Shown here: one piece after another, positions 7,076-22,802 of the stretch
How positions within the stretch are numbered: position 1 is the first letter of the stretch
Layout of the letters: each line of letters opens with the position of its first letter
Assembly: GCF_000384375.1 (NCBI RefSeq)
Contig: NZ_ARVX01000001.1
Coordinates: 2,294,001-2,358,000, forward strand
DNA: 64,000 nt
Reading direction: 5' to 3'
DNA from: Methylotenera versatilis 79
GTDB lineage: Bacteria > Pseudomonadota > Gammaproteobacteria > Burkholderiales > Methylophilaceae
Program-made: the position numbers and the translations under genes
Notes under the pieces: model-generated
Told to the model about the DNA's origin: nothing
The model's database searches: none
The model's input: only the letters and a program-made list of their open reading frames with translations

Positions 7076-7141
7076 CTACCTTGTTACGTACATAAAAACA
7101 AAATTACCATAAAAAATTGATACACTGATAATTTAAAAATA

Positions 7142-9661
7142 CTAATTTTGTTTACGACAATACACAGAAATCAATCTGCCAGTCTCACAAAGCTCATATT
7201 TCGTTTCCACAAGTGCATAAACCTCTTTCAAGCCTTGCATGACTTTGATACGCGCCTTTGCCTCTCCCAAAAGTGCTGGCAATTGAATTGTAGCTGGATC
7301 TAGCTCTACTGGCAGCTCACCATTTAAATTTTTATCTATATCAGTGTCTACATATACAAAATCAGGATTATTTTTAAATATGTGATTCGATGCAACCATA
7401 GCCTCTTTAGGGGAAACTATGTTTGTGAGCAACTCATTGTATGGCATAGCACTATACTTATTAGCTAAAATTGGTAGGATATGATCGTATTTAGAAATAA
7501 TGAAAATAGCGTTTTGATTGGTACTATATTTTTTTATAAGCTTCACACTTTCTTCAAAAAGCATTGGGTCCATTGTCGATTTAAGTTTCGCAGTATCAAA
7601 ACTCCATTCATACACCTTATGATGATTAAATGCTTTGTAAGATACATAATTTTTCCAGTAGAAATTAATTGAACCCAACGCATAGATTAAAATAATAGGT
7701 GAAATTAAGAGGACACTATACTTCCTACCGTTAGTTTCCTTAGCAGAGTCACACAGACCATGAAAAAGTATTGTTAGCCAAAAAATAAATACGGGTGCAA
7801 CGCCCAATATGTGATGTATTTGTGGATACCATATATAGTAGGTTAGACTTTGTACAAAATAAAAAGCCATTGCTACTGAAAGTACAGTCAGTGAATTATT
7901 TTGCTTGATGACTACATTAGCGTAAAGCAACATACTAACTAGTACTAAAAGTATGAAAATGCTTTTAGTATTTGCCTGCGGCGATCCCACACCTAAAAGC
8001 ATGTAAATTGCCGTAGGATTAGCGCCAGGAAATGGGTAGAGGTAGAAAAACAGTCCGATAATTGCCAACCCTACACCGAATACCAATAATAATGTTTGCA
8101 CTTTTTGATCTTTTATACCTTTAAATATTATAGCTCCCGCTAAAGACAAAGTAATAAACAGCCCAAAATCTTTACTCCACAATATAGAAAATAGCGAAAG
8201 CATTAATGCGCATATAAAATAGAGCCAGCTATTTTTCTTCAAGTATTGGTAGAAAAAATAAAAAATGATTGCATCAAAAAAATGACGGATTGGATTAAAA
8301 CCTGATGCTAGATGTATGAGATCCCGACCCAAAAAAACAAGCGCGGTAACAGTTAACAAGGTTGCAAAAAACAAGGTGTTAAATCGTTTAAATATTGCAA
8401 ATATACTTAATAAAAAAACTGCAAAATAAACTAGATAGTTGGCAAAAAACAATCTGAAATAGCTGTGATAATTTGATGATTCAAATTCTTTAAGCAATTT
8501 TGCTTGGAGTGTAGTACTTAACCAACCGTAAACCATTGTTTGGCTATAGGGAGTAGCACCTAGATTAAGCGCATTCATCACACCGAAATTATATCCATGG
8601 TGATATAAAAAAGAACCCGCTTTAGATTGGTTAACTAACTCAACTGCATTTATTCGTAAGAAATCCCGCTCTTCTGAATTATATAGACGACTTTGTATAC
8701 CCTCACTTAAATTCATGCTATTGATAAATAGCTTATCAATACTTTCTTTGTCCTTTTTGGATAACTCCAATGTAGCCAATAAAGTTTTTTCATTAATAGA
8801 AAAGGATGTTTTTGTTACAAAATTATTATCTTTATCACAAAAAAATTGATGTTCATTTTCATTATTTACTGAAATTAGCGCCTTAAGAACCAATTGGCAA
8901 CTCTCTATTCTCTGTACAGAGTAGACTGTGCTGGTTTCATTTAAGGCATGCGATTTACGCGGATCGCTTATTTGCAATCCTGCAATTTTATGTGCATTAA
9001 TATAATCTAAGTTATCTACTACTTTGCCCGATTTTAAAATGGTTCTTTCTGAAATATTTATATAGTCATTTTTTATCACCATCGGCTTTAAAACGAGTGG
9101 TAAAAAAATAAATGTATATTGAATCAACAAAATGACAAAAAAGACTTTAAAAATCCATCGAGGTATCGCAATTTTAGGAGCTGACATGCCTAAAACATAA
9201 AAAGGAAACCAACAAAACAAAAGTAGCCATAAAACAATGAATACTGAATACCGATTCAAGTTAATGGAAAGAATAACTACATTAATAAAGACTGTTCCAA
9301 TAAAGTAAAAAAGCGTTTTGCTTACTTTATGCTGTTGCAATATCGAATCAGCACTGGGCATTGATTTGCTTATAAGCAGATATGCACCATAATTAGTCAA
9401 CAAAGCAATAATGGACAATACATACTGCAATAGTGAGGTTAGCTTTAGCCCTACTCCTCCCGTTGGTTTTGCCCAAGAATAAAAGCTTGCAGATTCGTAA
9501 ATTGAAGGAGAAAGGATATTTGCTAAAGTTGATGCAATGAAAATTGAGACTGCTATTAGCCCTAGGCTGTTGATAGCAAAATGTGAAATCAGTAAATTTC
9601 GTGTTGAAATTCTCTCGAAAAATTTACCAAAAAAACCATTACGGATTAGGTCACTAATCAT
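7142..9661 (-). CDS. Large polytopic membrane protein of the polysaccharide locus, function unknown
   Basis: I do not recognise this 839-residue protein. It starts at an ATG and shows roughly six hydrophobic segments in the first 200 residues. A hydrophilic region follows at about 205-400 (containing a Cys-bearing stretch near residues 250-270), then eight or more membrane segments at about 405-670 and a hydrophilic C-terminal domain of about 170 residues. A locus with a Wzx-like flippase needs an O-antigen polymerase (Wzy) and a GtrAB-like pair usually serves a polytopic GT-C glycosyltransferase. This is the only obvious polytopic candidate for either role. Strong AT-rich codon use matches the adjacent glycosyltransferase genes. 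No Wzy or GT-C motif could be confirmed by eye. Confidence 0.75.
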   Translation of the reverse strand: MISDLIRNGFFGKFFERISTRNLLISHFAINSLGLIAVSIFIASTLANILSPSIYESASFYSWAKPTGGVGLKLTSLLQYVLSIIALLTNYGAYLLISKSMPSADSILQQHKVSKTLFYFIGTVFINVVILSINLNRYSVFIVLWLLLFCWFPFYVLGMSAPKIAIPRWIFKVFFVILLIQYTFIFLPLVLKPMVIKNDYINISERTILKSGKVVDNLDYINAHKIAGLQISDPRKSHALNETSTVYSVQRIESCQLVLKALISVNNENEHQFFCDKDNNFVTKTSFSINEKTLLATLELSKKDKESIDKLFINSMNLSEGIQSRLYNSEERDFLRINAVELVNQSKAGSFLYHHGYNFGVMNALNLGATPYSQTMVYGWLSTTLQAKLLKEFESSNYHSYFRLFFANYLVYFAVFLLSIFAIFKRFNTLFFATLLTVTALVFLGRDLIHLASGFNPIRHFFDAIIFYFFYQYLKKNSWLYFICALMLSLFSILWSKDFGLFITLSLAGAIIFKGIKDQKVQTLLLVFGVGLAIIGLFFYLYPFPGANPTAIYMLLGVGSPQANTKSIFILLVLVSMLLYANVVIKQNNSLTVLSVAMAFYFVQSLTYYIWYPQIHHILGVAPVFIFWLTILFHGLCDSAKETNGRKYSVLLISPIILIYALGSINFYWKNYVSYKAFNHHKVYEWSFDTAKLKSTMDPMLFEESVKLIKKYSTNQNAIFIISKYDHILPILANKYSAMPYNELLTNIVSPKEAMVASNHIFKNNPDFVYVDTDIDKNLNGELPVELDPATIQLPALLGEAKARIKVMQGLKEVYALVETKYELCETGRLISVYCRKQN

Positions 9662-9850
9662 CAGAAAGCCTTTACTAAATGCTAAGCATCCATAGTTTAT
9701 AAATATCTAGCAATCTATTTTAGATTAAGTCTAAAACTTCAGATTGTATTAGTTACCATTATTTAACTCATTAAACCTATAAAATTACTTACTAAACTTA
9801 CTAGCATGTTATTGAAAAATGCGAATAACCTAATTTATTTTTAGTAAAAT

Positions 9851-10582
9851 TTACTCCCCTCTGAGTTTTTTTGCCATAGTTTCAACAATAAAATATCTTG
9901 GTGGATGTATGTTAATTTTTCTTCTTAAATAATTAATCGTTGGATGTTTTACAAAGAATGAATTAACTTCTTTCGGTTGGAATAATGGAACTATCACTCT
10001 TCTTGTAAAAAATTCTAAAATTGATAATTTTAATGGGGAAAGTACTGTTTTTTCTATTTCAAATCCTGCACTACTAATAACAGTCTCAAACTCTTCTTTT
10101 GATGCGTATTCTCTGAGATGTGTTGGATCCATAGCCCATTTTCCATCAGCAGTTTTGTAATACCACCAACCATAAGACTTCCTCACTAGTGATGCAATAT
10201 AAAGTGTGCCGCCTGGCCTTAGAATTCGTTTTATCTCTTTTAGTAATTTGTCTTGATCAACATGCTCAATTACTTGAGTGCATACAATAAAGTCAAAGCT
10301 ATTATTATCAATTTCTGGAATGGATGTAACGTCTGAGCAAAAAACTTTAAAGTCTGTATATTGTTTTAGTCGTTCACAACGTTCAGGTGACAAATCAACG
10401 GCAACAACATTCTTAGCCTTTACTAAATAACCGCCCAATTTCAATGCAACCAAAAGAGCACCGTCACCCGCACCCAAATCTGCAAGGTCAACTTCTTTAC
10501 CCTTTAAAAAATCTCTTACCATTTCAGGAATTTCCTCTGTATGAAAATGCAGAAATGTCCTTGAGTATTCATTAAAATCCAT
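9851..10582 (-). CDS. Class I SAM-dependent methyltransferase
   Basis: A 243-residue protein with the Rossmann-type methyltransferase core. Motif I is DLGAGDGALL (near residues 36-45), followed by VVAVDLSPERC (acidic ribose-binding strand), FDFIVCTQVIEHV and LRPGGTLYIAS. This is the Methyltransf_11/UbiE-like fold, which often methylates sugars or chain ends in polysaccharide loci. It starts with ATG 18 bases after the SDR gene stop. A 189-base AT-rich gap separates it from the next gene. The substrate is unknown; O-methylation of a glycan residue is the inference from context. Confidence 0.88.
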   Translation of the reverse strand: MDFNEYSRTFLHFHTEEIPEMVRDFLKGKEVDLADLGAGDGALLVALKLGGYLVKAKNVVAVDLSPERCERLKQYTDFKVFCSDVTSIPEIDNNSFDFIVCTQVIEHVDQDKLLKEIKRILRPGGTLYIASLVRKSYGWWYYKTADGKWAMDPTHLREYASKEEFETVISSAGFEIEKTVLSPLKLSILEFFTRRVIVPLFQPKEVNSFFVKHPTINYLRRKINIHPPRYFIVETMAKKLRGE

Positions 10583-10600
10583 TTTTATCTCAGTTTCTAT

Positions 10601-11380
10601 TTAACGTTTAGGGCCATGAGCTTTTGCCCATGTAATCAACTTATCGTATACAACACCAGGCAATATTCGAAATCCATTCCAAATCAAACGTGATTGCCAC
10701 GGAATAATTGGTAATCTTGATTTATTCTTAATTTTTTTCTCAATTAATATTGCGGCCTTCTGAGGGGATAGAATTCCAGGTATCCAAAAAGGTAACCCCT
10801 CCGTCATTGCGGTATCTACAAAACCTAAGCCAATCGTTGTAACACTAATTCCGTGAGATACTAATCTTAACCTGAGGCTTTCTGTCCAAACATTTACTGC
10901 TGCTTTTGATGCAGAATAAGCGCCTGAGTTTGGTGTTCCCCGAAAAGACCCAATACTTGAAATAGCAACTATTTGACCTTTACCAGCAGCTTTCATCTCT
11001 TTGATAAAAGGCGTTATTGTATTAATTAATCCAAAATAGTTCACCCTCATCAATTCTTCAGCTATTTGATTTTCTTGATATTCTTGATCCTCTTCCCCAC
11101 GTATGCCTGCATTAGCAATGACAATATCAATATGACCAACTGTTGCTAAAAAATCGTTCGATAACTTTTTCAATAGCGAATCGTCTGTCACATCTGCAAC
11201 ATATTCATAGACTACTGCACCTTTTGCGCGACACCGCTCTGATACTATATTCAACTCTAACTTACGACGCGCTAATAGGCCCATCGCGACGCCTGGTTTA
11301 GCATAAAGCTCACTTAAAGCCGCACCGACTCCAGAGGATGCGCCAGTGATCCAAATTGAACGTATATTTTCATTCTTCAT
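10601..11380 (-). CDS. SDR family oxidoreductase
   Basis: A classical short-chain dehydrogenase of 259 residues. The NAD(P)-binding motif is TGASSGVGAA close to the N-terminus, the structural NAG motif appears as IANAGIRG, the catalytic Ser lies in ISSIGSF and the catalytic Tyr-x3-Lys is YSASK. An Arg pair (LLARR) after the second beta strand suggests NADP preference. It lies between the GtrA-like gene and the methyltransferase gene. It could reduce a keto group of a sugar intermediate made by the upstream CDP-sugar module, but this is inferred from the locus only. Confidence 0.88.
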   Translation of the reverse strand: MKNENIRSIWITGASSGVGAALSELYAKPGVAMGLLARRKLELNIVSERCRAKGAVVYEYVADVTDDSLLKKLSNDFLATVGHIDIVIANAGIRGEEDQEYQENQIAEELMRVNYFGLINTITPFIKEMKAAGKGQIVAISSIGSFRGTPNSGAYSASKAAVNVWTESLRLRLVSHGISVTTIGLGFVDTAMTEGLPFWIPGILSPQKAAILIEKKIKNKSRLPIIPWQSRLIWNGFRILPGVVYDKLITWAKAHGPKR

Positions 11381-11412
11381 AAATTATATTTTTTCAAAAG
11401 GACACTATTGAT

Positions 11413-11832
11413 TTAATTGGATTTAAAAGAAAAACGACTATGACCAAAATATGCCATTGCAACAACTAAGACTGCAATAAGTGCTTGTGAAACAACTGGA
11501 TTAAGCCCTATAAATTCGACAAAAAAACCGATTAATATAAGGTTAACGATAAATGTAGTGCCATATACAACATAAAATCTTAAGTACTCTCTTAAATAAT
11601 TCCCTTTAGTTTTGAACACTAAAAATTTGTAACAAATATATGCATTAGTTAAACCAACTATTTGACTTAACACTAATACCAGCATGTAATGTAGAGAGTC
11701 GTGTGTTAAATAATATAAACACAGAAAAGCGACATAAGAAAATAGCGTGTTCCATGCACCTACTGCAACGTAGGTTAATTTTTTCTGAGTATTTGGAGAA
11801 GAGTTTTTGGCAAAATCCAGTAGTCGCATCAT
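11413..11832 (-). CDS. GtrA-family membrane protein
   Basis: A 139-residue protein with four predicted membrane segments. It shows the GtrA family pattern: a first segment with YVAVGAWNTLFSYVAF, a second with LSQIVGLTNAYICYKFLVF, and a C-terminal ending of the YFGHSRFSFK type. GtrA-family proteins are proposed to flip undecaprenyl-phosphate-linked monosaccharides. It starts 31 bases after a DPM1/GtrB-like glycosyltransferase, the partner that makes the lipid-linked sugar. Both ATG codons 11832 and 11829 are possible starts. Confidence 0.9.
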   Translation of the reverse strand: MMRLLDFAKNSSPNTQKKLTYVAVGAWNTLFSYVAFLCLYYLTHDSLHYMLVLVLSQIVGLTNAYICYKFLVFKTKGNYLREYLRFYVVYGTTFIVNLILIGFFVEFIGLNPVVSQALIAVLVVAMAYFGHSRFSFKSN

Positions 11833-11863
11833 CCTTGGCTTCTCTCTAGATTCAAAATATTGA

Positions 11864-12802
11864 TCAATTTAAGCCCACTTGATTTTTTACTATAAAATTT
11901 GGCCGTTGTTTTACCTCTTCATAAATAAGGCCAATATATTCACTCATTACGCCTAGTATGGTGAATAAAATACCAAACATTAATAATACGACAGTCATAA
12001 TCGTGCCATAGCCAGCAAAAGGCACACCCCAAACCAATGCTTTAATAATGGTTACAACTAATAGTGCAAATGAAAGCATTGAAACCGAAATCCCCATAAA
12101 GGTAATAAGCTTTAAAGGAATATATGAATGAGCAAAAATGCCCTTTATTGCTAAATCTATAACTTTAAATGTATGCGCGCCTGAAACTCCGGCAAATCGC
12201 TCTGCGCGCTCATGTTTTATACCAACTGATTTGTATCCCACCCACGCAAAAAGCCCGCGTACAAAGCGATTACGCTCATGTATAGAGTTAATGGTTTGAT
12301 ACACTTTTTTGTCAATTAATCTAAAATCACTTACGTTGCTGGGTATTTTTCCATCTGTTAATGCATTTGCAACTCTGTAAAATAACTGTGAATTAAATCG
12401 ACGAATAATGCCTGTGCCGTTACGTTTGGTGACGATGCCATATATGTTTTCGTAACCCTCTTCCCACTTCTGTATAAATTGGGTAATTAATTCTGGCGGG
12501 TCTTGTAGATCAGCTGTCATGATGACTGCAGCATCGCCTGATGCAAAGTTAAGCCCAGCTGTAATGCCACCGTCCATTCTAAAATTTCTGGCTAATTGTA
12601 AAATTTTAAACCGTTTATCTGTTTGATGAGCCAACAGCAATTTTTCGTACGTATTATCTTGCGATCCATTTTCAACAATAATTGCTTCAAAGTCGTAATT
12701 TGAATTTGTTCCAAATACAGCTTGCAAGCGTGATGTTAATTCACTGATATTGTCTTGTTCGTTATAAGCGGGAATGACAATAGATATTAATTTTTTATTC
12801 AT
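11864..12802 (-). CDS. GtrB/DPM1-like polyprenyl-phosphate glycosyltransferase (GT2)
   Basis: The N-terminal domain is a family 2 glycosyltransferase with ISIVIPAYNEQDNI, IIVENGSQDNT and the catalytic TADLQDPPE motif. The C-terminus has two hydrophobic segments, as in GtrB and DPM1-type enzymes that attach a sugar to undecaprenyl phosphate. The frame is open back to 12853, inside the previous gene, but the ATG at 12802 (MNKKLISIV) places the conserved strand at the expected distance from the N-terminus and leaves a 19-base gap, so it is preferred. It pairs with the following GtrA-like gene. The transferred sugar is unknown. Confidence 0.9.
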   Translation of the reverse strand: MNKKLISIVIPAYNEQDNISELTSRLQAVFGTNSNYDFEAIIVENGSQDNTYEKLLLAHQTDKRFKILQLARNFRMDGGITAGLNFASGDAAVIMTADLQDPPELITQFIQKWEEGYENIYGIVTKRNGTGIIRRFNSQLFYRVANALTDGKIPSNVSDFRLIDKKVYQTINSIHERNRFVRGLFAWVGYKSVGIKHERAERFAGVSGAHTFKVIDLAIKGIFAHSYIPLKLITFMGISVSMLSFALLVVTIIKALVWGVPFAGYGTIMTVVLLMFGILFTILGVMSEYIGLIYEEVKQRPNFIVKNQVGLN

Positions 12803-12821
12803 ATTTTTCTTAACTATTGAG

Positions 12822-13778
12822 TTACTGATTAATTTTTTGGATGGTTGCATCAATCGAAGCCGTTAAATCGTATTTTAAAGTTAACCCTAGCACTTTTTTC
12901 GCTTTTTCAGTTGATGGCACATAGCGGTCTATTTTTGACTCGGATATTGATGGCACGTCTGCTTGTGTTTGAGAACGTGAAGCTATTGTAGTGGCTAAAT
13001 CCCCTAAAATAACTGCATGGTCTGAACCAACATTGTAAATGGGACAATCGGATGAAGCAGAATCTGCCATCGTCATTAACCATTCAACCAAATCATCTGC
13101 ATACATATAGCTACGGTAAACTTTATGGGTAGTTTTTACAACAATTGGTCGCTTATTGATCGCATCTTCAATAAAATTCCCAATCGCAAAATGTTGATTT
13201 CTGGGTAACCAACACCCAACAAAAGCAAAACATCGTGCGATACTGACATTTAATCCCTCAGCACCCAATTGCTTTATTGCCAGCTCTGCATCATGCTTAG
13301 CAACCGCATAACTTTGTTTCGCAATATCCATGTGCACCAATCCACTTGGCATTTCATACTCATTTATTTGCGGAATATTCGAAGGCTGGGTACCATATAC
13401 AGCGCCAGAACTTGTATAAACAATTTTACTTTTAAGATGAAATTTTTTAGCCAATTCACAATAGTGATAGGTACCCGCTTGTATATTTTTTTTCTCAGTT
13501 TCTGGTTGAGTAATATAGTTTCTTACATCAGTTGAAGCGGCCGCGTGAATAACATAATCAGCATTAGGCAAAAAATCTGTGGTAGTAATATCTGCGGATA
13601 ATAGCTCAACGTTCGCATTTAGTAATTGCGGTGCTTCTGTTTTAAGGACCTGTGTATTTCTAGACATTACGATGACTTTGGCAATTTGCCAAGGCTCTAG
13701 TAAGCCCCGACTAAAGGCATCTAAAATAGATTTACCAAAAAAACCAGTGCCGCCGATAATTAATAGTGTCTTCATCAT
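12822..13778 (-). CDS. NAD-dependent epimerase/dehydratase (extended SDR)
   Basis: A 318-residue extended SDR with LLIIGGTGFFGKSI at the N-terminus, VIHAAAST, a catalytic Ser-containing YTSSGAVYG and a YAVAKHDAE motif giving the Tyr-x3-Lys. These are features of nucleotide-sugar epimerases, reductases and dehydratases. It begins with two adjacent ATG codons 26 bases downstream of the HpcH/HpaI aldolase gene, so it probably acts on the product of the CDP-sugar block. Whether it epimerises, reduces or acts as a 4-keto reductase cannot be decided from sequence. Confidence 0.87.
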   Translation of the reverse strand: MMKTLLIIGGTGFFGKSILDAFSRGLLEPWQIAKVIVMSRNTQVLKTEAPQLLNANVELLSADITTTDFLPNADYVIHAAASTDVRNYITQPETEKKNIQAGTYHYCELAKKFHLKSKIVYTSSGAVYGTQPSNIPQINEYEMPSGLVHMDIAKQSYAVAKHDAELAIKQLGAEGLNVSIARCFAFVGCWLPRNQHFAIGNFIEDAINKRPIVVKTTHKVYRSYMYADDLVEWLMTMADSASSDCPIYNVGSDHAVILGDLATTIASRSQTQADVPSISESKIDRYVPSTEKAKKVLGLTLKYDLTASIDATIQKINQ

Positions 13779-13804
13779 ATATTGATATTAAATTTGACGG
13801 CTAT

Positions 13805-14602
13805 TTAAGATAAAACTTTCCACCGACTTTCTAGCAATTCAATTCTTTTATCATCTTCTTGCATAATCATTGAGTAATAGTCACGTTTATTTAACAACCA
13901 AAGCAATTCAAATTTAACCGCCAAAAGCAAGCCCGTTTCAATATCGCAATCATTTATTGCTGTTGTCGCATCAAAAATAACCTTTCTAGTTTCAAACCGG
14001 GTTAAGTTTGTTGCGTGAATTTTCTTTAGCATTGATAACGCGTCGATTGATACTGCACCACCTACAACCATATCGATTTTATTGTCTAAGCAAACTTTAC
14101 TGGCTTTAACACAATAGTCTGTAACAGCATCGGTATTGATTACTTCTCTTGACCAACCCATTGAGCCAGAAAAATCGACCCTGCCAAAAACCATGCCATC
14201 TAATGCATTATCTGTAGATGCGATTTTTGCCATCTCTTCTATATGATTAAATGCAGTGATGGTTTCAACATTGAATAAAAAGTCTGTGTCAGCTTGCTCT
14301 TCAATGCTATATATTTTATTTTTGGCATCAATAAATTTCGAAAGCGCATAAGGTGTCTCAACCATTGGCGCAATAATATATTCCACGCCAAGCTGCTTGC
14401 TTTCCATTAAATCTCTTATTGCTTCGCAACCACCAATTTTTAAACCAATCTTTAAATCAGCTTTACGTGCAATTTCAATTAACCTTAATAACTCATCTAC
14501 CCTAGTTCCTTCAGCTTCAAATTCCGCCTTAACTGAAACTGCTCCATGTTCTTGTTTCAGCTTTTTTAAACATTCAAGCATTTGATATTCGCGATTATTC
14601 AT
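13805..14602 (-). CDS. HpcH/HpaI aldolase/citrate lyase family protein
   Basis: A 265-residue protein with a TIM-barrel aldolase pattern of the HpcH/HpaI/CitE superfamily. Motifs include [36 protein letters not shown] and [13 protein letters not shown]; the Glu in the VET stretches and the Asp in GRVDFSG are in the positions expected for the divalent-metal and pyruvate/enolate site. Such enzymes make or break carbon-carbon bonds using pyruvate, acetyl-CoA or related enolates. It starts with ATG 12 bases after the TPP enzyme gene. Finding it inside a CDP-deoxysugar gene block is unusual and suggests carbon-chain extension of a sugar. Confidence 0.85.
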
Positions 14603-14614
14603 AATTTTTTCTTT

Positions 14615-16393
14615 TTAATTAATTAGATATTTAGCTAAAGCCGAAAATTGATCTTCTGGCAAGTTCGGCGTCATTAAATGTAACGAATTAGACTCCATTG
14701 CACCATTAGTAGTAATTTTACTGGTTATTTTAGGAAAGTAAGTTTGTTCAGGATCAATGGAAACAATAAATGCACAAGTTTCTTTACTATCAAACATTTT
14801 TTTGAATTGCTCATCCGATTCATAACCCACATTTACTCTTATCGATGGCACCCCCCATGCCATAAAAAGTTTTTCCCAATTAGGCAAGCCTAATCCAGTA
14901 GTTCGATCGCAACCCACATATCTACCACCAAAGTAATTCCTTTGCGTAGCACGTATAGAGGCATAGCCAGAGTCATCAAAAATAAAGATTTTCAAATTTA
15001 ATTTATTAATGGAAGCAGTACCGATTTCTTGAATATTTTGAGAAAATCCGCCATCACCTTCAACCAGGATAACTCGTTTATCAGGATGCGCGAATGCAGC
15101 CCCGATTGCGCCTGATAAGCCATACCCCATAGATGCCAAACCTTTATTGGTCACTATAGTTTGCTGTGATTTTTGCTCAAAAGCCTGCATCATGATTGTA
15201 AATGCTCCACCACTGCTACAAGGCACAATTACATCATTTTCTGCACTCAATTGTGATAGCTTTTCTGCAAAAATGTAAGGCGAGAGATATTCACTTCGAG
15301 TTTGATTGATAGGCTCAACTAAAGGTATAGATGCCCTAATTAATCCTGTGTAAGCAAGCCAATCTAAATGTGTGGCATTTTCATTAGCAGAGAAATTGTT
15401 ATTTACAAGCTTGCTTAAAAACGCATTCGCATCTGCCAATATTGGAAATGCTACTTTAGGGTGCGCTTTATCCAATTCAGCTTGATCAATATCAATTTGA
15501 ATCACTTCTCCCTTAGGAACAAACGATTGCCAATTGAAACCTGTTTGTTGCATGCCTAATCTAGTACCAACTGCAATGACTAAATCACTTTGTTGCAGAA
15601 TTAAGTTAGCGCTGCGCTGCCCCCATGTATTAGGTCGCCCAACATAATTTGGCTGATTCGACGGTATACGATCAGCGGCATTCCAAGTGGTTGCAATTGG
15701 AATTTGTAAGCTTGCTAGTACTTGTTTTAACTTTCTGGTTGTTGCTCTATTGACTCCGCCGCCAATTAACAACAAAGGGCGTTTTGCGGCGTTTATTTTT
15801 TCTATTACTTTACTAATTTGATTGTCATCAGCTTGCGGATAGTCTAGGGCCACATTGTTATGATGTATTTGTGATGAAAACTGCACATCACGCGCTTGTA
15901 CATCAATAGGCATTTCAATAAATACTGGGCCTTTCCTAAAAACACCTACGTGGTTAACTAAGTCAAAAAAATCACTGAAATCAACTGCTTCTTCTAACAA
16001 CACAGATCTCACGGCGATTGGTTTAACGATGGATACACCATCGATTTCTTGTATGCCACGCTGACGTAATTTACCTTTTGCAAGGTCAGCCGTTTTGACC
16101 TGCCCGCCTATCACTAACAATTCTCGGCTCTCCAGGAAAGCGCCAGCAACGGCTGTCACAATATTAGTTAACCCAGGTCCTGCAGTGACTAATGCCACTG
16201 CTTTTTTGCCATTACTGCTTTCATTAAAATATTCAGCGGCAATACCGGCTGCAACTTCATGTATTACAGGAATACAAACTAATTTATGACTAAAACTTTC
16301 AATTAAATGCATGATATTTCCGCCGCCCACATAAAAACAATGGGTGTAATTCATTTGCACTAACCAATCAGTTATCTGATCGCTATACTTCAT
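14615..16393 (-). CDS. Thiamine diphosphate-dependent enzyme, acetolactate synthase-like (YerE-type candidate)
   Basis: A 592-residue three-domain ThDP enzyme. The PYR domain carries VIHEVAAGIAAEY with the catalytic Glu at residue 46, and TAGPGLTN near 70-77. A central domain follows at about 190-330. The PP domain has GDGGF at 446-450. The second part of the cofactor motif, normally NN, reads DD at 473-474. Its general plan matches acetolactate synthase-like enzymes including YerE, which adds an acetyl unit from pyruvate to CDP-4-keto-3,6-dideoxyhexose in yersiniose synthesis. The rfbFGH genes nearby would supply exactly that class of substrate. It overlaps the cyclase gene by 11 bases. The role is inferred; the family is clear. 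Confidence 0.88.
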   Translation of the reverse strand: MKYSDQITDWLVQMNYTHCFYVGGGNIMHLIESFSHKLVCIPVIHEVAAGIAAEYFNESSNGKKAVALVTAGPGLTNIVTAVAGAFLESRELLVIGGQVKTADLAKGKLRQRGIQEIDGVSIVKPIAVRSVLLEEAVDFSDFFDLVNHVGVFRKGPVFIEMPIDVQARDVQFSSQIHHNNVALDYPQADDNQISKVIEKINAAKRPLLLIGGGVNRATTRKLKQVLASLQIPIATTWNAADRIPSNQPNYVGRPNTWGQRSANLILQQSDLVIAVGTRLGMQQTGFNWQSFVPKGEVIQIDIDQAELDKAHPKVAFPILADANAFLSKLVNNNFSANENATHLDWLAYTGLIRASIPLVEPINQTRSEYLSPYIFAEKLSQLSAENDVIVPCSSGGAFTIMMQAFEQKSQQTIVTNKGLASMGYGLSGAIGAAFAHPDKRVILVEGDGGFSQNIQEIGTASINKLNLKIFIFDDSGYASIRATQRNYFGGRYVGCDRTTGLGLPNWEKLFMAWGVPSIRVNVGYESDEQFKKMFDSKETCAFIVSIDPEQTYFPKITSKITTNGAMESNSLHLMTPNLPEDQFSALAKYLIN

Positions 16394-17468
16394 AAAACGC
16401 CTTTATATAATCGAATGATGCTTTCAAATCATGTGCTGATTGATCGTTAATGGGAATAAATTGACGATACAAATAACCGTTCTCATTTGGAATGATGATA
16501 ACAAATTCATCTTTACGATGTTTTTTATCAGATTTGAATTTTTCAAAAGCATTTGCTGACGACATTTGCTTTAAATTTTGACTCAATGTAGAAATATTAC
16601 TCAGTATGAGCTTAACGTACTTAAATAAAGCTTGCACTCTTGTATTGTTGCTTAATGAAGGATTCAATTTTGTGGAAAAATCCACTGCTATTAACATACC
16701 CAATCCAACTGCAACACCATGTGTTATTGCAAAATGACTAGCTGACTCTATTGCGTGTCCAAAAGTATGCCCAAAATTCAACAGCAGTCGAATGTCTTGA
16801 TCAAATTCATCTTCCTCAATAAATTTCTTTTTTGTTTTTAACGTTAAGGAAATTGCTTGTGATAAATGAGTTTGATGAACATTACCGTCTGTTTGCACGA
16901 TGTGTAAAAACCGTTCAAAGGCATCATCATTACTGGCAAAACAAATTTTGACTGCCTCACACAAACCAGCAATCACCTCATCTTTTAATAATGTGGCACA
17001 AAATTCTGTATGAATAAAAATTTCATCTGGTGGATAAAAGTTACCTGCAATATTTTTATACTGCCCTACGTTAATAGAAGATTTACCACCTAAGCAAGAA
17101 TCAACCATACCAAGTAAAGTGGTTGGATAATACGTCCAGCTAATCCCACGCATGTAAATTGATGCCACAAAAGTCGCAACATCCTGTATCACTCCGCCCC
17201 CTATAGCATCCAGATGGCTTTTTCTGCTTGCTCCTAATGCTCTTAATTGTTCAATAACAGAACCAACTACTTCTAATGTCTTGGACTCTTCAGTGGCGGG
17301 AATAGCGATACATCGCTCATTTGATAGAAAAGGATAAAGCTCGAGTACATAGGCATCAATCAGAACATAACTTTGTTCTTTGTTAGCATTTGTTACTTTA
17401 GGTAAATTATCGACTATCTGAACTTGATAGTTTTTTACGCTTGATGCAATTTCAAATGATACGGACAT
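16383..17468 (-). CDS. 3-Dehydroquinate synthase-like sugar phosphate cyclase
   Basis: A protein of about 361 residues in the AroB superfamily. It shows GGGVIQD (about 90-96), YMRGISWTYYPTTLLGMVDS, GGKSSINVGQYKN, and metal-site residues in AGLCEAVK (Glu) and LNFGHTFGHAIE (His). The next block reads HGVAVGLGM, whereas housekeeping AroB has His-Gly-Glu-Ala. Placement in a CDP-sugar block points to a specialised sugar phosphate cyclase rather than the shikimate enzyme. The longest frame starts at a TTG (17480); the ATG at 17468 is preferred and overlaps the preceding SDR gene by 17 bases, suggesting translational coupling. Its substrate is unknown. Confidence 0.85.
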   Translation of the reverse strand: MSVSFEIASSVKNYQVQIVDNLPKVTNANKEQSYVLIDAYVLELYPFLSNERCIAIPATEESKTLEVVGSVIEQLRALGASRKSHLDAIGGGVIQDVATFVASIYMRGISWTYYPTTLLGMVDSCLGGKSSINVGQYKNIAGNFYPPDEIFIHTEFCATLLKDEVIAGLCEAVKICFASNDDAFERFLHIVQTDGNVHQTHLSQAISLTLKTKKKFIEEDEFDQDIRLLLNFGHTFGHAIESASHFAITHGVAVGLGMLIAVDFSTKLNPSLSNNTRVQALFKYVKLILSNISTLSQNLKQMSSANAFEKFKSDKKHRKDEFVIIIPNENGYLYRQFIPINDQSAHDLKASFDYIKAFYEV

Positions 17469-18153
17469 CGGAGAATCCAAGATCTACCTTAACAAACTGC
17501 CCAGTTACTCCTGAGTTATCTGCGGAACATAAAAAATAAACAGAATTAGCGACATCCGCTAATTCTGCTAAACGTGAAAATTGTGTGGCGTATTTAATGC
17601 TGTTAACTTGATTGACTGACAAATTTTGATGCGTCATCGGTGTATTGAGCGCACCAGGAAGTACCGCATTAACTAAATAACCATCTGCGCCAAGGTCATT
17701 AGCTAAAGAAAGTACCAAGCCTTTAAGTGCCGACTTTGTAACGCCGTATGACAATTTATTTTGACGTGAAATATTCTGCCAAATTGAACTAATAATACAG
17801 AGCTTTGCCGACTTCTTTAATAGTCTTTCTTTTAAAAGAAGATTTAATGACTGGATAATATATACAACATTAATGTCATAAATTTCACGATGCTTATCGG
17901 CATTAAACGCATAAATGCTGTCATTACAATTTGCACCCTGAGACCAACATACCGCATCAAATTGACCAAAAGAGTGAAGCTTGCTGATTACTTCAGCGTT
18001 AGTTTCAACCAGCGGATTCCAGCAAATTGTATTATCAAGCGTGGCAAGTTGACGTGAAACACATACAACTTCCCAATCTTGATTGTTGAATCGCTGATGT
18101 ATTGCTGTGCCTATAGCGCCGCTTGCACCAAAAACAAGTACTTTTTGTTTCAT
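17452..18153 (-). CDS. SDR family oxidoreductase in CDP-sugar block
   Basis: A 233-residue classical short-chain dehydrogenase. The coenzyme motif is VFGASGAIGTAI, the catalytic Ser lies in IISSIWQN and the catalytic Tyr-x3-Lys is YGVTK. A PGALNTPMT segment after the active site is typical of the family. It starts with ATG only 7 bases after rfbH and overlaps the sugar phosphate cyclase gene downstream, so it is part of the same enzymatic block. A ketoreductase role on a branched or cyclised sugar, analogous to YerF, is plausible but not shown. Confidence 0.87.
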   Translation of the reverse strand: MKQKVLVFGASGAIGTAIHQRFNNQDWEVVCVSRQLATLDNTICWNPLVETNAEVISKLHSFGQFDAVCWSQGANCNDSIYAFNADKHREIYDINVVYIIQSLNLLLKERLLKKSAKLCIISSIWQNISRQNKLSYGVTKSALKGLVLSLANDLGADGYLVNAVLPGALNTPMTHQNLSVNQVNSIKYATQFSRLAELADVANSVYFLCSADNSGVTGQFVKVDLGFSDVRII

Positions 18154-18160
18154 CTGCTTG

Positions 18161-19480
18161 CTAATCGAAATTTAAGCCAAGATATGTTTCGATTTTAGTG
18201 GCAGAAAAATCCAGCATTTCTTCTGTTAATCCAGGATAAACGCCAATCCAGAAGCTATCATTCATAACTTTATCCGTGTTTGTTAACTCGCCACTGATTC
18301 GATAATTGCGCCCTATCATATAAGGCTGCCTAGTTAAGTTGCCCGCAAATAATAACCGAGTGCCAATCTTGTTTTGATCAAGATAATTCAGTAAATCAAC
18401 ACGGTTAATATTGGCTTCTGGACGAATCGTCATTAAAAAACCAAACCAGGAAGGGTCGCTATTAGGTGTAGCTTCTGGAAGAATTAAAAATTCTTCACAA
18501 GAAGAAAGTCTATTTCTTAAATAAGCATAATTATCTTTACGTGCTTGTACAAAGCTATCAAGTTTATCCATTTGAGCTAAAGCACAAGCTGCCTGCATAT
18601 CTGTAATTTTTAGGTTATAACCTAAATGTGCATAGGTATATTTATGATCGTAACCTTCAGGCAAGGTACCTAATTTCCAACAAAAACGCTTGCCACATGT
18701 GTTGTCTTTTCCTGGTGCGCAATAGCAATCACGACCCCAATCACGGAAAGATTCTGCGATTAATTTCAACTCAGGATTGTTGGTAAACACTGCACCACCT
18801 TCACCCATTGTAATATGGTGAGCGGGATAGAAACTGAGCGTGCCAATATCACCAAATGTACCCGTGAGCTGTCCTTCGTATCGTGAACCCAAAGCATCAC
18901 AATTATCTTCAACCAACCATAGATTATATTTCTGACAAATCTCTTTAACCACTTTAATGTTAAATGGATTACCTAACGAGTGTGCGAGCATAATTGCTTT
19001 AGTCTTAGGACTAATTGCAGCTTCAATTTTGCTGGCGTCGATATTATGTGTAGTCAGCTCAATATCAACAAATACAGGAACAGCGCCAAACTGAAGTATA
19101 GGATTTACGGTAGTAGGGAAACCTGCTGCCACGCCAATTACCTCATCACCAGGCTTAATAGCACGCGCGCCTAATCTTGGTGATGTGAGTGCGGTAAAGG
19201 CAAGTAAGTTAGCAGATGAGCCAGAATTAGTAGTAATTAGAAACTTTACGCCCAAATAGTCAGCCAAGCGTTTTTCAAAGGCTTCATTGAACCGACCTGT
19301 TGTTAACCAACCATCAAGTGAAGCTTCAACCATATTTTTAAGCTCAGCAGCATCAAGCACTTTTCCAGAAGGTGGAATAATAGTTTTACCTGCTTCAAAA
19401 GCTTTAGGCTCATATTTAATTGCTGCATACTCGTCAACCAGTTTAGCAATTTGCTGGCGGATTTCTAAAGGTCTATCCAA
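18161..19480 (-). CDS. rfbH: RfbH: CDP-4-dehydro-6-deoxyglucose 3-dehydratase (E1)
   Basis: A 439-residue fold-type I PMP/iron-sulfur enzyme. It dehydrates CDP-4-keto-6-deoxy-D-glucose at C3 on the way to 3,6-dideoxyhexoses. The usual PLP-binding Lys is replaced by His in SFYPAHHITMGEGG, the hallmark of E1/RfbH. The cysteine cluster in RDCYCAPGKDNTCGKRFC matches its [2Fe-2S] site. The start is a TTG at 19480 with an AAGGA ribosome site eight bases upstream and no ATG that keeps the N-terminal helix. It lies between rfbG and an SDR gene. The partner reductase (RfbI/AscD, E3) is not in the window. Confidence 0.95.
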   Translation of the reverse strand: MDRPLEIRQQIAKLVDEYAAIKYEPKAFEAGKTIIPPSGKVLDAAELKNMVEASLDGWLTTGRFNEAFEKRLADYLGVKFLITTNSGSSANLLAFTALTSPRLGARAIKPGDEVIGVAAGFPTTVNPILQFGAVPVFVDIELTTHNIDASKIEAAISPKTKAIMLAHSLGNPFNIKVVKEICQKYNLWLVEDNCDALGSRYEGQLTGTFGDIGTLSFYPAHHITMGEGGAVFTNNPELKLIAESFRDWGRDCYCAPGKDNTCGKRFCWKLGTLPEGYDHKYTYAHLGYNLKITDMQAACALAQMDKLDSFVQARKDNYAYLRNRLSSCEEFLILPEATPNSDPSWFGFLMTIRPEANINRVDLLNYLDQNKIGTRLLFAGNLTRQPYMIGRNYRISGELTNTDKVMNDSFWIGVYPGLTEEMLDFSATKIETYLGLNFD

Positions 19481-19543
19481 AACGTTTTCCTTATAATTTT
19501 TATGGTTTAATTGTTGATTATTTAAAATAAATAGCTATGTTTA

Positions 19544-20623
19544 TTACAATATTGCTGATTCGTATTGTTTTATTTGCTCTAAGCATAAAGTTTGCATATC
19601 AGCATTTGCTTGATGCGCTTTGTGCCAAACACAAATTTTATCTATCGCTTCAGCTAACTTCCATCTTGGTTGCCAATTCAAAAGCATCTTTGCTTTAGAG
19701 CAATCAAGTTTCAAATAATGCGCTTCATGAGGATGATTGCCGCTATCTAATGACCAACTCGCACCTTCACCCCAATCTTTTGCAAACCTTTCCACAATCC
19801 ATTGCACAGGCTTAGCATCATCGTCATTGGGGCCGAAATTCCATCCCTCAGCATACGCTGATCCATGTTGATATAAATTTTCAGCCAATAATAAATAGCC
19901 TGACAATGGCTCTAACACGTGTTGCCACGGGCGTACAGCTAAAGGATTTCGAATGTTGACTGGATTGTTTAATGTGATGGCTCGCACAATATCAGGAATA
20001 AGTCGATCATATGCCCAGTCACCGCCGCCAATCACGTTACCCGCACGGGCAGAAGCCAAAGCAACTCCATGGATTTCATATTTACCTGAGTGAAAATATG
20101 AGCTTCGATATGCAGCAGTTATAAGCTCTGAACAGCCTTTACTATTACTATATGGATCATAACCACCCATCGCTTCGTTTTCACGATATCCCCACACCCA
20201 TTCGCGATTTTCATAACACTTGTCACTTGTAACGTTTACTACAGCCTTGACACTTGGGGCATTTCGCACGGCCTCAAGCAAATTTACGGTGCCCATTACG
20301 TTTGTAGAATAAGTTTCAACTGGATCAATATAGGATTGACGTACTAAAGCTTGTGCTGCCATGTGAAAAACAATCTCAGGCTTGTGTTCAGCAAAGACTG
20401 CAGACAAGCCTGCTAAATCACGAATATCGCCAACAATATTAGTCATACCTTTACTAACATTTGCAACATCAAATAAGCTTGGTTTAGCGGATGGAGCTAA
20501 AGCATAACCCACAACATTAGCACCCATCGATTGCAACCACAAAGATAACCAACTGCCTTTAAAACCAGTATGTCCTGTTAAAAGAACGCGCTTATTTTTC
20601 CAAAACTCGTGATTCACGACCAT
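19544..20623 (-). CDS. rfbG: RfbG: CDP-glucose 4,6-dehydratase
   Basis: This extended SDR of about 360 residues converts CDP-D-glucose to CDP-4-keto-6-deoxy-D-glucose. Motifs are [15 protein letters not shown] (NAD site), [30 protein letters not shown], and YDPYSNSKG with the catalytic Tyr-x3-Lys. [17 protein letters not shown] and [10 protein letters not shown] follow, all characteristic of RfbG/AscB. The ATG at 20623 is chosen; GTG codons at 20632 and 20617 are alternatives. The start overlaps rfbF by 10 bases, consistent with coupled translation. It supplies the substrate of RfbH. Confidence 0.96.
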
Positions 20624-21387
20624 ACCTTCCACGGCGCTTTACCTGACTGCCATAGTTCTTCAAGATGTATCTTGTCACGCAAGGTGTCCATTGGCTGCCA
20701 AAATCCATGATGTTGAAATGCGGCTAACTGGCCTTCTTCTGCCAATCGCTCTAATGGATCGCGTTCCCAAGTAGTTTTATCATCCACAAGATATTCAAGA
20801 ATTTGTGGTGACAATACAAAAAAACCACCGTTTATCATTGCACCGTCACCTTTGGGCTTCTCATGGAAACTATTCACTTTTACGCCGTTTAAATCTAAAG
20901 CACCAAAACGTCCTGGAGGAATTGTCCCTGTTAGAGTAGCTTTAAGTCCCTGTGCTTTATGGAATTTAATCAGTTTAGTAATATTGACATCGCTGACTCC
21001 ATCTCCATAAGTAAAACAAAAAGCCTCTTCATCTTTTATATAATCTGCTACACGCTTTAAACGACCACCTGTCATCGTTTCTTCGCCAGTATCGACCAAA
21101 GTTACTTTCCACGGTTCGGCATAACGCTGATGCACTTCCATTTTGTTATTTTGCATATCAAAAGTAACATCTGAAGTGTGTAAAAAATAGTTAGCAAAGT
21201 ATTCTTTAATGACATAGCCTTTGTAGCCACAGCAAATCACAAAGTCATGAATACCATGAGCAGAATACATTTTCATGATATGCCACAAAACAGGCTTGCC
21301 GCCAATTTCAACCATAGGCTTTGGTCGAACTGATGTCTCTTCACTGATACGGGTGCCTAAACCACCCGCCAAAATTACTGCTTTCAT
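20614..21387 (-). CDS. rfbF: RfbF: glucose-1-phosphate cytidylyltransferase
   Basis: A 257-residue nucleotidyltransferase that makes CDP-glucose from CTP and alpha-D-glucose 1-phosphate, the first committed step to CDP-deoxysugars. The N-terminus [23 protein letters not shown] holds the nucleotide-binding Gly-rich loop, and [10 protein letters not shown] contains the catalytic metal-binding Asp. [13 protein letters not shown] and a WERDPLE motif are family-specific. The start ATG overlaps the stop of manC in a TAATG junction. It is the first gene of the CDP-sugar module. Assignment to this family is firm. Confidence 0.96.
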
Positions 21388-22802
21388 TAATTAACTACTC
21401 TTCCATAACTATCATCAAACCGAATAATATCATCTTCGCCTACATAATCACCACACTGTACTTCAATAATACTTAACGGTTCACTACCTTTATTTTCTAA
21501 GCGATGGCGATGCGTTTTTGAGATATAGGTGGATTGGTTTTCGTTTAAGGTGAATTCGATTTCGTTATTGGTAATGGTGGCAATACCAGAAACGACTACC
21601 CAATGTTCAGCGCGATGTTTGTGCATTTGCATGGATAATTTTGCACCTGGATTCACTACAATGCGCTTGATTTTAAAGTTGATACTTTCTTCTAGGACAG
21701 TGTAACTGCCCCATGGGCGATAAACCGTCTGATGGATTTCAGTTAAAACGGGATTGTGAATTTTCACTTGTGCAACTAGCGCTTTAATGTCTTCACTACG
21801 GTTTTTATCGCAAATCAAAGTAGCATCTGCAGTTTGAATAACCGCGATGTTATCTACGCCCAAAATTGCCAGCAAACCTGTTTCTGTCCACAGCAAACTA
21901 TTGGTTGTTTCTTGTGATAACACTTGGCCGTGCGTCACATTGTTTTGCGCGTCTTTTTCATGCCGTTGGTAAATAGAATCCCAGCTACCTAAGTCGCTCC
22001 ATGCCATATCCACTGGCACTACCGCCACTTTTTCTGCCAGTTCTGCCAAGCCATAATCCATCGATACATTATCAAAGTTCGCATAAGTATCTGAAAAGTT
22101 TTCCTCATTCAGACTAACCACTTGCTGCGCCATTTCTGGTTGATATTGTTTCAGCATATTCATAAATGCTTGTGATTTAAACACGAACATACCGCTATTC
22201 CACAAATAGCCATCGCTGACAAATTGTTTGGCTTTTTCCACATCAGGCTTTTCGACGAACTTATCGACCTTAAACAACGGCAGCGCGCCATTGTATGTCA
22301 GTTGCTGTCCAGTCTTAATATAACCATAACCAGTTGCAGGCTCATGCGGCTTAATGCCGAGCAATACTAAATAGCCATCATTCGCGGCTAATTCAGCGGT
22401 TTGCCAAGCTTGTAAAAACGCATCGGTTTTATCGATGGCATGATCAGAGGCAAACACACCGATCAACGCGTTTGGATCTTGCTGATTGATTTGATTCACT
22501 GCCCAAGCAATCGCAGGTAAAGTATTTCTGGCGCAAGGCTCTGCCAACACATTACTCACAGATTCAGGCGCGATTTCTGCCAATTGACCTTTTACTTCGA
22601 ATTTATGATCTTCGTGCGTAACCGTAAACAAATTGGCGGCAGAAACATGCGCTAACAAACGCTGTGTGGTTTGCTGCAACAAAGTTAAATCGCCATTTAA
22701 TGCCAATAATTGCTTAGGACGTAATGTACGTGATAGTGGCCACAAGCGCGTGCCAGAGCCGCCACATAAAATAATCGCATAACGGTTTAATTGCGCGCTC
22801 AT
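21387..22802 (-). CDS. manC: Bifunctional mannose-1-phosphate guanylyltransferase/mannose-6-phosphate isomerase
   Basis: A 471-residue ManC/CpsB/AlgA-type type II enzyme. The N-terminal guanylyltransferase domain has [20 protein letters not shown] and FVEKPDV motifs. The C-terminal cupin domain of the isomerase has [10 protein letters not shown], a [13 protein letters not shown] metal site and a late HRLENKG motif. It makes GDP-mannose, precursor of mannose, fucose, rhamnose or perosamine units of the polysaccharide. It starts with ATG 4 bases into the end of the regulator gene. Downstream GDP-mannose-converting enzymes are not obvious in the window. Confidence 0.95.

Follow-up and report, generated by a model that had tools for sequence, protein, structure and literature searches.

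We analyzed a stretch of 64,000 nucleotides from Methylotenera versatilis 79 (contig NZ_ARVX01000001.1, positions 2,294,001 to 2,358,000; hereafter the window), in which a block of minus-strand genes very probably makes a rare, branched surface sugar with 12 carbons, either caryophyllose itself or one closely related to it. Beside rfbF, rfbG and rfbH, the block carries genes for a short-chain dehydrogenase (SDR), a protein related to the dehydroquinate synthase (DHQS) AroB, here called DHQS-like, a YerE-like carboligase dependent on thiamine diphosphate (ThDP), and an aldolase-like protein of the HpcH/HpaI fold, here called HpcH. The gene content, its conserved linkage in other genomes, an alternation between the DHQS-like gene and a HAD phosphatase gene, conserved active sites, and the recurrence of the gene set at a Mycobacterium marinum-type locus were all found by computation. 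We consider it highly likely that the product is a sugar branched at C4 with a keto acid made by the aldolase. The full caryophyllose-type route described below, in which a six-carbon branch is placed on C4 of a CDP-3,6-dideoxyhexose by reactions, substrates and an order of steps that we infer, is likely. We also favor, with somewhat less assurance, a widespread modular donor pathway that combines a distinct HpcH-fold aldolase with a phosphate lyase of the DHQS family, and that ends the branch in CH3 or CH2OH as the lyase and SDR are swapped for a HAD phosphatase.

Caryophyllose, the ThDP-dependent branching step with its assignment, and the CDP-4-keto-3,6-dideoxy acceptor are already known. 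According to the review PMC12247030, CDP-4-keto-3,6-dideoxyglucose serves both YerE and ErwE as the acceptor of keto-acid units. YerE uses pyruvate as the donor to give yersiniose and also takes 2-oxobutyrate; for ErwE, the same review reports no use of pyruvate and a preference for 4-hydroxy-2-oxo acids, which are longer and hydroxylated. It also assigns MMAR_2332 of M. marinum to caryophyllose, with a donor preference like that of ErwE. In PMC5706390, caryophyllose is given as 3,6-dideoxy-4-C-[D-altro-1,3,4,5-tetrahydroxyhexyl]-D-xylo-hexopyranose, and mutants in MMAR_2331, MMAR_2332 and MMAR_2333 each accumulate LOS-II*, a lipooligosaccharide (LOS) precursor without caryophyllose.

The HpcH gene was found in 10 of 396 mycobacterial genomes. 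To place the 6.45-Mb mycobacterial genome G726, we used six M. marinum mmpL12 primer sequences from PMC12507525. Four of the six were present in G726, all within 4.7 kb, and they occurred in none of ten other stretches tested, which identifies G726 as M. marinum itself or a close sister. Its locus reads rfbG and rfbH on the plus strand, followed on the minus strand by rfbF, a family 2 glycosyltransferase (GT2) gene, and the ThDP, HpcH, SDR and DHQS-like genes. With the ThDP gene as MMAR_2332 and mmpL12 (MMAR_2342 in PMC12507525) on the far side, HpcH, SDR and DHQS-like correspond by order to MMAR_2331, 2330 and 2329. In the automatic list of open reading frames (ORFs) of this stretch of G726, the number of ORFs agrees with rfbG, rfbH and rfbF being MMAR_2336, 2335 and 2334, and ORFs of fitting size and order are candidates for papA4, mmpL12, fadD25 and pks5. 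This list drops the GT2 and DHQS-like genes, where longer overlapping ORFs won, and the places of both rest on separate results. By gene order, the GT2 of G726 is MMAR_2333, which we take to be the caryophyllose glycosyltransferase.

The caryophyllose-type gene set (HpcH, SDR, DHQS-like, ThDP and RfbF/G/H) is complete in the window, as in G726, and a GT2 gene is present at both loci. Protein identities between the two were 58% for GT2, 56% for HpcH, 49–50% for the ThDP enzyme, 40% for DHQS-like and 27% for SDR. The loci differ in gene order and strands, and in the destination of the sugar, which is lipooligosaccharide in M. marinum and presumably O-antigen or capsule in the window. An earlier reading of the window from its sequence alone had proposed a carbon-extended CDP-sugar branched by the ThDP enzyme, a proposal that the shared block at the caryophyllose locus supports. 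That reading had also named caryophyllose, and the lead was right for the sugar; it had pointed to Burkholderia as the source, whereas the producer open to testing here belonged to the mycobacteria.

Eight of the ten HpcH-bearing mycobacteria had the DHQS-like gene, and a further aroB-type match was listed in seven of these eight. The other two, M. terramassiliense and G812, had an aroB-type match alone and no DHQS-like gene; in M. terramassiliense, a HAD gene lies 300 bp from HpcH. In G812 (locus L149, 2149-3879), HpcH shares 89% identity with the M. terramassiliense protein. The next ORFs there appeared methyltransferase-like by eye, and a methylated, gastriose-like sugar is possible there.

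The structure of caryophyllose suggests what the donor would be. Read outward from C4, the branch is CHOH-CH2-CHOH-CHOH-CHOH-CH3, which equals a decarboxylated 3,7-dideoxy-heptulosonate when worked out by hand. Since ThDP-dependent decarboxylation leaves C2 of the keto acid as the first branch carbon, the donor would be HOOC-CO-CH2-CHOH-CHOH-CHOH-CH3. The D-altro configuration of the branch (left, right, right, right in Fischer projection) points to a D-ribo donor, and the last two branch centers match D-erythrose provided that the C6 ketone is reduced to the D form (configurations likewise assigned by hand). Since 3-deoxy-D-arabino-heptulosonate 7-phosphate (DAHP) has the other configuration at C4, a separate aldolase would be needed. 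DAHP from primary metabolism was accordingly rejected as the donor precursor, being D-arabino where D-ribo is required, and the block has an aldolase gene of its own.

In the route that we propose, RfbF, RfbG and RfbH would make CDP-4-keto-3,6-dideoxyglucose, the acceptor of the ThDP enzyme. The HpcH-type aldolase would condense pyruvate with D-erythrose 4-phosphate from the opposite face, and the product, 3-deoxy-D-ribo-heptulosonate 7-phosphate, would be epimeric with DAHP at C4. DHQS works by transient oxidation at C5, elimination of phosphate and reduction at C5. The DHQS-like enzyme would in the same way oxidize C5, eliminate the C7 phosphate and re-reduce C5, and the resulting enol would be protonated with no net ring closure, leaving a ketone at C6 and a methyl group at C7. 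The SDR would then reduce the C6 ketone to give 3,7-dideoxy-D-ribo-heptulosonate, which the YerE-like ThDP enzyme would decarboxylate, joining what remains, a six-carbon acyl unit, to the CDP-keto sugar at C4. The extended SDR encoded downstream of HpcH is a candidate reductase of the branch ketone, presumably in a role like that of YerF, which we take to belong to the yersiniose pathway of Yersinia pseudotuberculosis. The GT2/GtrA pair would pass the branched sugar on, with GT2 as the candidate transferase. In an alternative form of the route, a HAD phosphatase would stand in for the DHQS-like and SDR steps, and the branch end would stay CH2OH.

To examine the linkage of these genes, we scanned named genomes with the HpcH alignment alone and retained 80 loci, the best 80 of 431 confirmed, so that distant relatives are under-represented; 50 of the 80 loci were at least 18 kb long and 30 were shorter. 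A gene was scored as present according to its top BLAST match, for which we chose minimum identities by eye. The sequence-only reading had treated the genes as one functional block and had proposed a gene-neighborhood comparison, and the scan bore this out, as HpcH by itself recovered the same neighbors in other genomes. Of the 50 longer loci, 47 contained the ThDP gene and 49 had one or more of rfbF, rfbG and rfbH. The DHQS-like and SDR genes were both present in 53 of the 80 loci and both absent from 25; the SDR occurred without the DHQS-like gene in two loci, on contigs of 3.7 and 5.7 kb, and the reverse was never seen. By a distance rule, the SDR gene was scored as the immediate upstream neighbor of the DHQS-like gene in 49 of the 53 loci; the remaining four fell outside the rule, as their stop-to-stop ORFs for the two genes, which share a strand, overlap too far. 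Because the SDR gene always accompanies the DHQS-like gene, the SDR most likely acts on the DHQS-like product. An extended-SDR (epimerase) homologue on the same strand and within 1.5 kb of the ThDP gene was found in 20 of the 69 loci with a ThDP gene.

The block is a patchy accessory block. Close relatives of the DHQS-like protein (at least 46% identity) were found in 3 of 100 related genomes and, across the phylum, 8 of 398 genomes had the HpcH protein; both counts include the genome of M. versatilis 79 itself. According to the depositors' titles, many of them for metagenome-assembled genomes (MAGs), the HpcH loci came from Proteobacteria, Actinomycetota, Acidobacteria, Eremiobacterota, Bdellovibrionales, Flavobacteriaceae and Prochlorococcus. 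The closest rfbF among them (85% identity) was in a Methylotenera MAG (L041). On a contig titled Prochlorococcus sp. AG-409-B13 (L103; HpcH at 10001-10789), genes for HpcH, HAD, the ThDP enzyme and RfbF/G/H were present, which suggests a branched sugar in a marine cyanobacterium.

An enrichment screen of gene families near HpcH in loci without the DHQS-like gene showed, among others, two HAD families that were commoner there. Both matched Pfam HAD_2 and resembled phosphoglycolate phosphatase in NCBIfam, with scores below the cut-offs. By hidden Markov model search, a HAD gene lay within 3 kb of HpcH in none of the 53 DHQS-positive loci and in 16 of the 27 DHQS-negative loci (Fisher p 5e-10, uncorrected); the corresponding counts for loci of at least 18 kb were 0 of 33 and 12 of 17 (p 5e-8). 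Azonexus fungiphilus (L042) is one example of the HAD variant. Beyond that distance, one DHQS-negative locus had a HAD gene at 3.1 kb on the other strand and another had a weak match at 7.7 kb, and one DHQS-positive locus had a weak match at 6.1 kb. On an HpcH tree of 81 rows (55 with DHQS-like, 17 with HAD, 9 with neither), the DHQS/HAD state required 11 changes. Of 10 supported independent pairs on this tree, 5 to 7 showed HAD changing in the direction opposite to DHQS-like, and none showed both changing in one direction (sign test, median p 0.03, range 0.016–0.063). We read the DHQS-like enzyme with SDR, and the HAD phosphatase, as two routes to strip the phosphate from the aldolase product, the former by elimination and ketone reduction and the latter by hydrolysis.

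Four distant HpcH relatives (L114–L117, 32–43% identity) had no DHQS-like gene and were left out of the Fisher table. Weak HAD matches were present in two of them (L115 and L116), the ThDP gene in L114 (~6 kb away) and L115 (adjacent), and rfbF/G/H in L116. Three radical SAM families were also commoner in 19 HpcH loci without the DHQS-like gene (6, 6 and 4 of the 19, against 1, 1 and 0 of the 61 others); their representatives are L094 11484-12590, L039 12241-13566 and L056 15197-16975, one being of the SPASM type and one having a B12-binding domain.

We compared 60 DHQS-like sequences, including that of the window, with 17 AroB sequences. R111, D127, K133, N143, E175, K178, K217, R231, N235, H238, H242 and H254 were invariant in all 60, and K319 and K320 were conserved in 59, with one gap; we take these DHQS catalytic positions to be the ligands of zinc, phosphate, carboxylate and hydroxyl groups. 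Their conservation makes a DAHP-like phosphate substrate plausible. The DHQS-like proteins also have marks of their own, Q99, C129 and D42 in 60 of 60, where AroB has G (17 of 17), S (17 of 17) and N (16 of 17). Although it matches AroB and TIGR04425 at the family level, the window protein scored 319 bits against TIGR04425, below its cut-off of 400 (the M. marinum-type protein scored 311), and 257 bits against the AroB equivalog TIGR01357, below its cut-off of 305. An additional aroB-type gene and an additional acetolactate-synthase-type gene are present elsewhere in the same single-contig genome of 2.6 Mb, so the DHQS-like and ThDP copies of the block are probably not for primary metabolism. 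On these grounds, a plain second aroB and a plain second acetolactate synthase were rejected for the two genes.

The AlphaFold model of HpcH had a pLDDT of 95.9, and its top Foldseek matches in PDB were HpcH/HpaI aldolases (TM ~0.6), with pyruvate kinases and the citrate synthase SbnG likewise high in the list. E113 and D143 were invariant in 37 of 37 sequences and corresponded, in a weak alignment (E 0.002), to the IET and GPTD motifs of SwHKA; Glu and Asp residues of this type in HpcH aldolases are, we assume, metal ligands. HpcH thus resembles the class II pyruvate aldolases (HpaI, YfaU, SwHKA) in fold and in these motifs but is a distant member of the family, so pyruvate and erythrose 4-phosphate are its putative substrates. 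In the ThDP enzyme, the catalytic Glu (E46) and the GDGG motif (446-449) are conserved. Its best match, PDB 8rph, is named JanthE in PMC12188165.

Several observations weigh against the route as we have written it. Dehydroquinate formation from the enol is chemically easy, and the conserved DHQS residues are silent on whether the ring closes. HpcH had no PDB match by phmmer and only 9–17% identity in its Foldseek list, in which pyruvate kinases also rank high. The HAD families were picked from the enrichment screen, and the Fisher p values are corrected neither for that screen nor for shared ancestry; the sign test on the tree is marginal (p 0.016–0.063). Eleven of the 27 DHQS-negative loci had no HAD gene within 3 kb of HpcH, and some of these are short contigs and others are not; in one of them (L090), a DHQS-like gene lies ~18 kb away. 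Among mycobacteria, the SDR is only 25–27% identical to that of the window, no branch-ketone reductase was identified in the loci, and G812 has HpcH and ThDP genes but lacks a DHQS-like gene genome-wide and a HAD gene within the 14 kb read. In PMC5706390, moreover, the role of MMAR_2331 is left open between synthesis and transfer of caryophyllose.

The alternative that fares best keeps the same donor logic and changes the branch, either in chain length or in configuration, through another aldose phosphate or the opposite configuration at C4 or C6. We give it a small but appreciable chance. The window HpcH shares 56% identity with its M. marinum-type counterpart, and its closest relative (L029, 79% identity), found on a 4.6-kb contig, belongs to the HAD variant, so substrates may drift. 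Erwiniose, gastriose, ropiose and aurantose are further known branched sugars (PMC12247030). Against this, the conserved DHQS positions favor a seven-carbon 3-deoxy-ulosonate 7-phosphate, which would fix the chain length if true.

It is unlikely that the DHQS-like enzyme cyclizes its substrate as AroB does and the ring is kept, giving a carbocyclic branch or a ring-fused sugar like bradyrhizose or caryose. Bradyrhizose is a known bicyclic bacterial sugar, TIGR04425 is named 'cyclizing', and the DHQS catalytic positions are invariant. However, the caryophyllose of M. marinum, whose locus has the same genes, carries an acyclic, methyl-ended branch, and closure onto C2 would use up the keto acid needed by the ThDP enzyme. 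The phosphatase in loci without the DHQS-like gene also fits phosphate removal and not ring formation. The sequence-only reading had let the cyclase close a ring, or let cyclase and aldolase add carbons after a yersiniose-like step, and the results support neither. Instead, the alternation of DHQS-like plus SDR with the phosphatase, together with the acyclic methyl-ended branch, indicates that the ThDP enzyme receives a keto-acid donor already assembled by the aldolase, the DHQS-like enzyme and the SDR.

A yersiniose-type pathway, in which the ThDP enzyme would use pyruvate to make a two-carbon branch only and HpcH, DHQS-like and SDR would serve another product, is very unlikely: CDP-4-keto-3,6-dideoxyglucose with a YerE-like ThDP enzyme is indeed the yersiniose arrangement, but the other three genes recur beside the ThDP gene and rfbF/G/H, the window ThDP enzyme is 49–50% identical to the M. 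marinum-type enzyme (MMAR_2332 is reported in PMC12247030 to share the preference of ErwE for longer hydroxylated keto acids), and HpcH corresponds by gene order to MMAR_2331, whose mutant lacks the caryophyllose-bearing LOS (PMC5706390). The caryophyllose-type route that we prefer shares with the yersiniose pathway of Y. pseudotuberculosis its acceptor and a YerE-like ThDP step, and differs from it in the donor (pyruvate or 2-oxobutyrate for YerE) and in the extra aldolase, DHQS-like and linked SDR genes. With the erwiniose pathway (ErwE, Pectobacterium atrosepticum), it would share a ThDP enzyme that joins a hydroxylated keto acid to CDP-4-keto-3,6-dideoxyglucose.

In our searches of the Creative Commons-licensed literature of PubMed Central, we found no description of the donor arm (HpcH, DHQS-like and SDR) as the origin of the six-carbon branch, and none of the DHQS/HAD alternation. 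If true, our proposal would provide a complete route to the six-carbon branch with defined intermediates and a function for genes of the MMAR_2329 to 2331 type. It would also yield a gene-based rule for predicting methyl-ended and hydroxymethyl-ended branched sugars across several phyla, and a matched set of aldolase, deoxygenating lyase and carboligase for biocatalysis. To our knowledge, the DHQS-like enzyme would then be the first dehydroquinate-synthase relative that works without net ring closure.

The genes of the block are intact ORFs, all on the minus strand, and are transcribed in the order manC-rfbF-rfbG-rfbH-SDR-DHQS-like-ThDP-HpcH-epimerase-GT2-GtrA (Table 1), so that the genes and families named before were confirmed. 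RfbF, RfbG, RfbH and ManC passed curated NCBIfam cut-offs, which upholds the earlier assignment of RfbF-G-H to a CDP-4-keto-3,6-dideoxyhexose arm; the remaining genes were assigned at the family level. From manC to the epimerase gene, neighbors overlap or lie 7–26 nt apart (7–31 nt when continued through GtrA), which agrees with the tight packing described earlier except for a 63-nt gap before rfbH. An epimerase gene after the aldolase gene, also expected earlier, is present and lies just outside the interval then described. The manC gene probably serves the pathway of another sugar.

Table 1. Genes of the block in the window, in order of transcription.
Gene or product	Coordinates	Strand	Basis of assignment and remarks
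manC-type GDP-mannose pyrophosphorylase/phosphomannose isomerase	21387..22802	-	TIGR01479, 524 bits (cut-off 373); opens the run
rfbF, glucose-1-phosphate cytidylyltransferase	20614..21387	-	TIGR02623, 476 bits, above cut-off
rfbG, CDP-glucose 4,6-dehydratase	19544..20632	-	TIGR02622, 524 bits, above cut-off
rfbH, CDP-4-keto-6-deoxyglucose 3-dehydrase	18161..19480	-	NF011936, 760 bits, above cut-off; top PDB match 3bcx, E 4e-211
SDR, short-chain dehydrogenase	17452..18153	-	PF13561
DHQS-like (AroB-related)	16383..17480	-	PF01761 and PF24621; nearest NCBIfam TIGR04425
ThDP enzyme, YerE-like carboligase	14615..16393	-	Three TPP domains; top PDB match 8rph, E 3e-76
HpcH-like, HpcH/HpaI-fold class II aldolase	13805..14602	-	PF03328, 31.6 bits (cut-off 25)
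Extended SDR, epimerase family	12822..13778	-	PF01370
GT2 glycosyltransferase	11864..12853	-	PF00535
GtrA-type membrane protein	11413..11832	-	PF04138; possible flippase partner of GT2

A scan for promoters and terminators gave 26 promoter-like sites, compared with 42.5 in shuffled sequences, and a search of a plasmid collection returned three records, none of them informative. The GC content was 31–37% at positions 7000-14000, against ~40–45% over the right half of the window; such a drop would be expected of an imported polysaccharide locus. Inside this locus, the ORFs at 7142-9661 (839 aa, a membrane protein by eye) and 4680-6032 (450 aa) had no Pfam match at 1e-5. A homologue of the 839-aa ORF with 35% identity was found near the block in another HpcH locus (L110).

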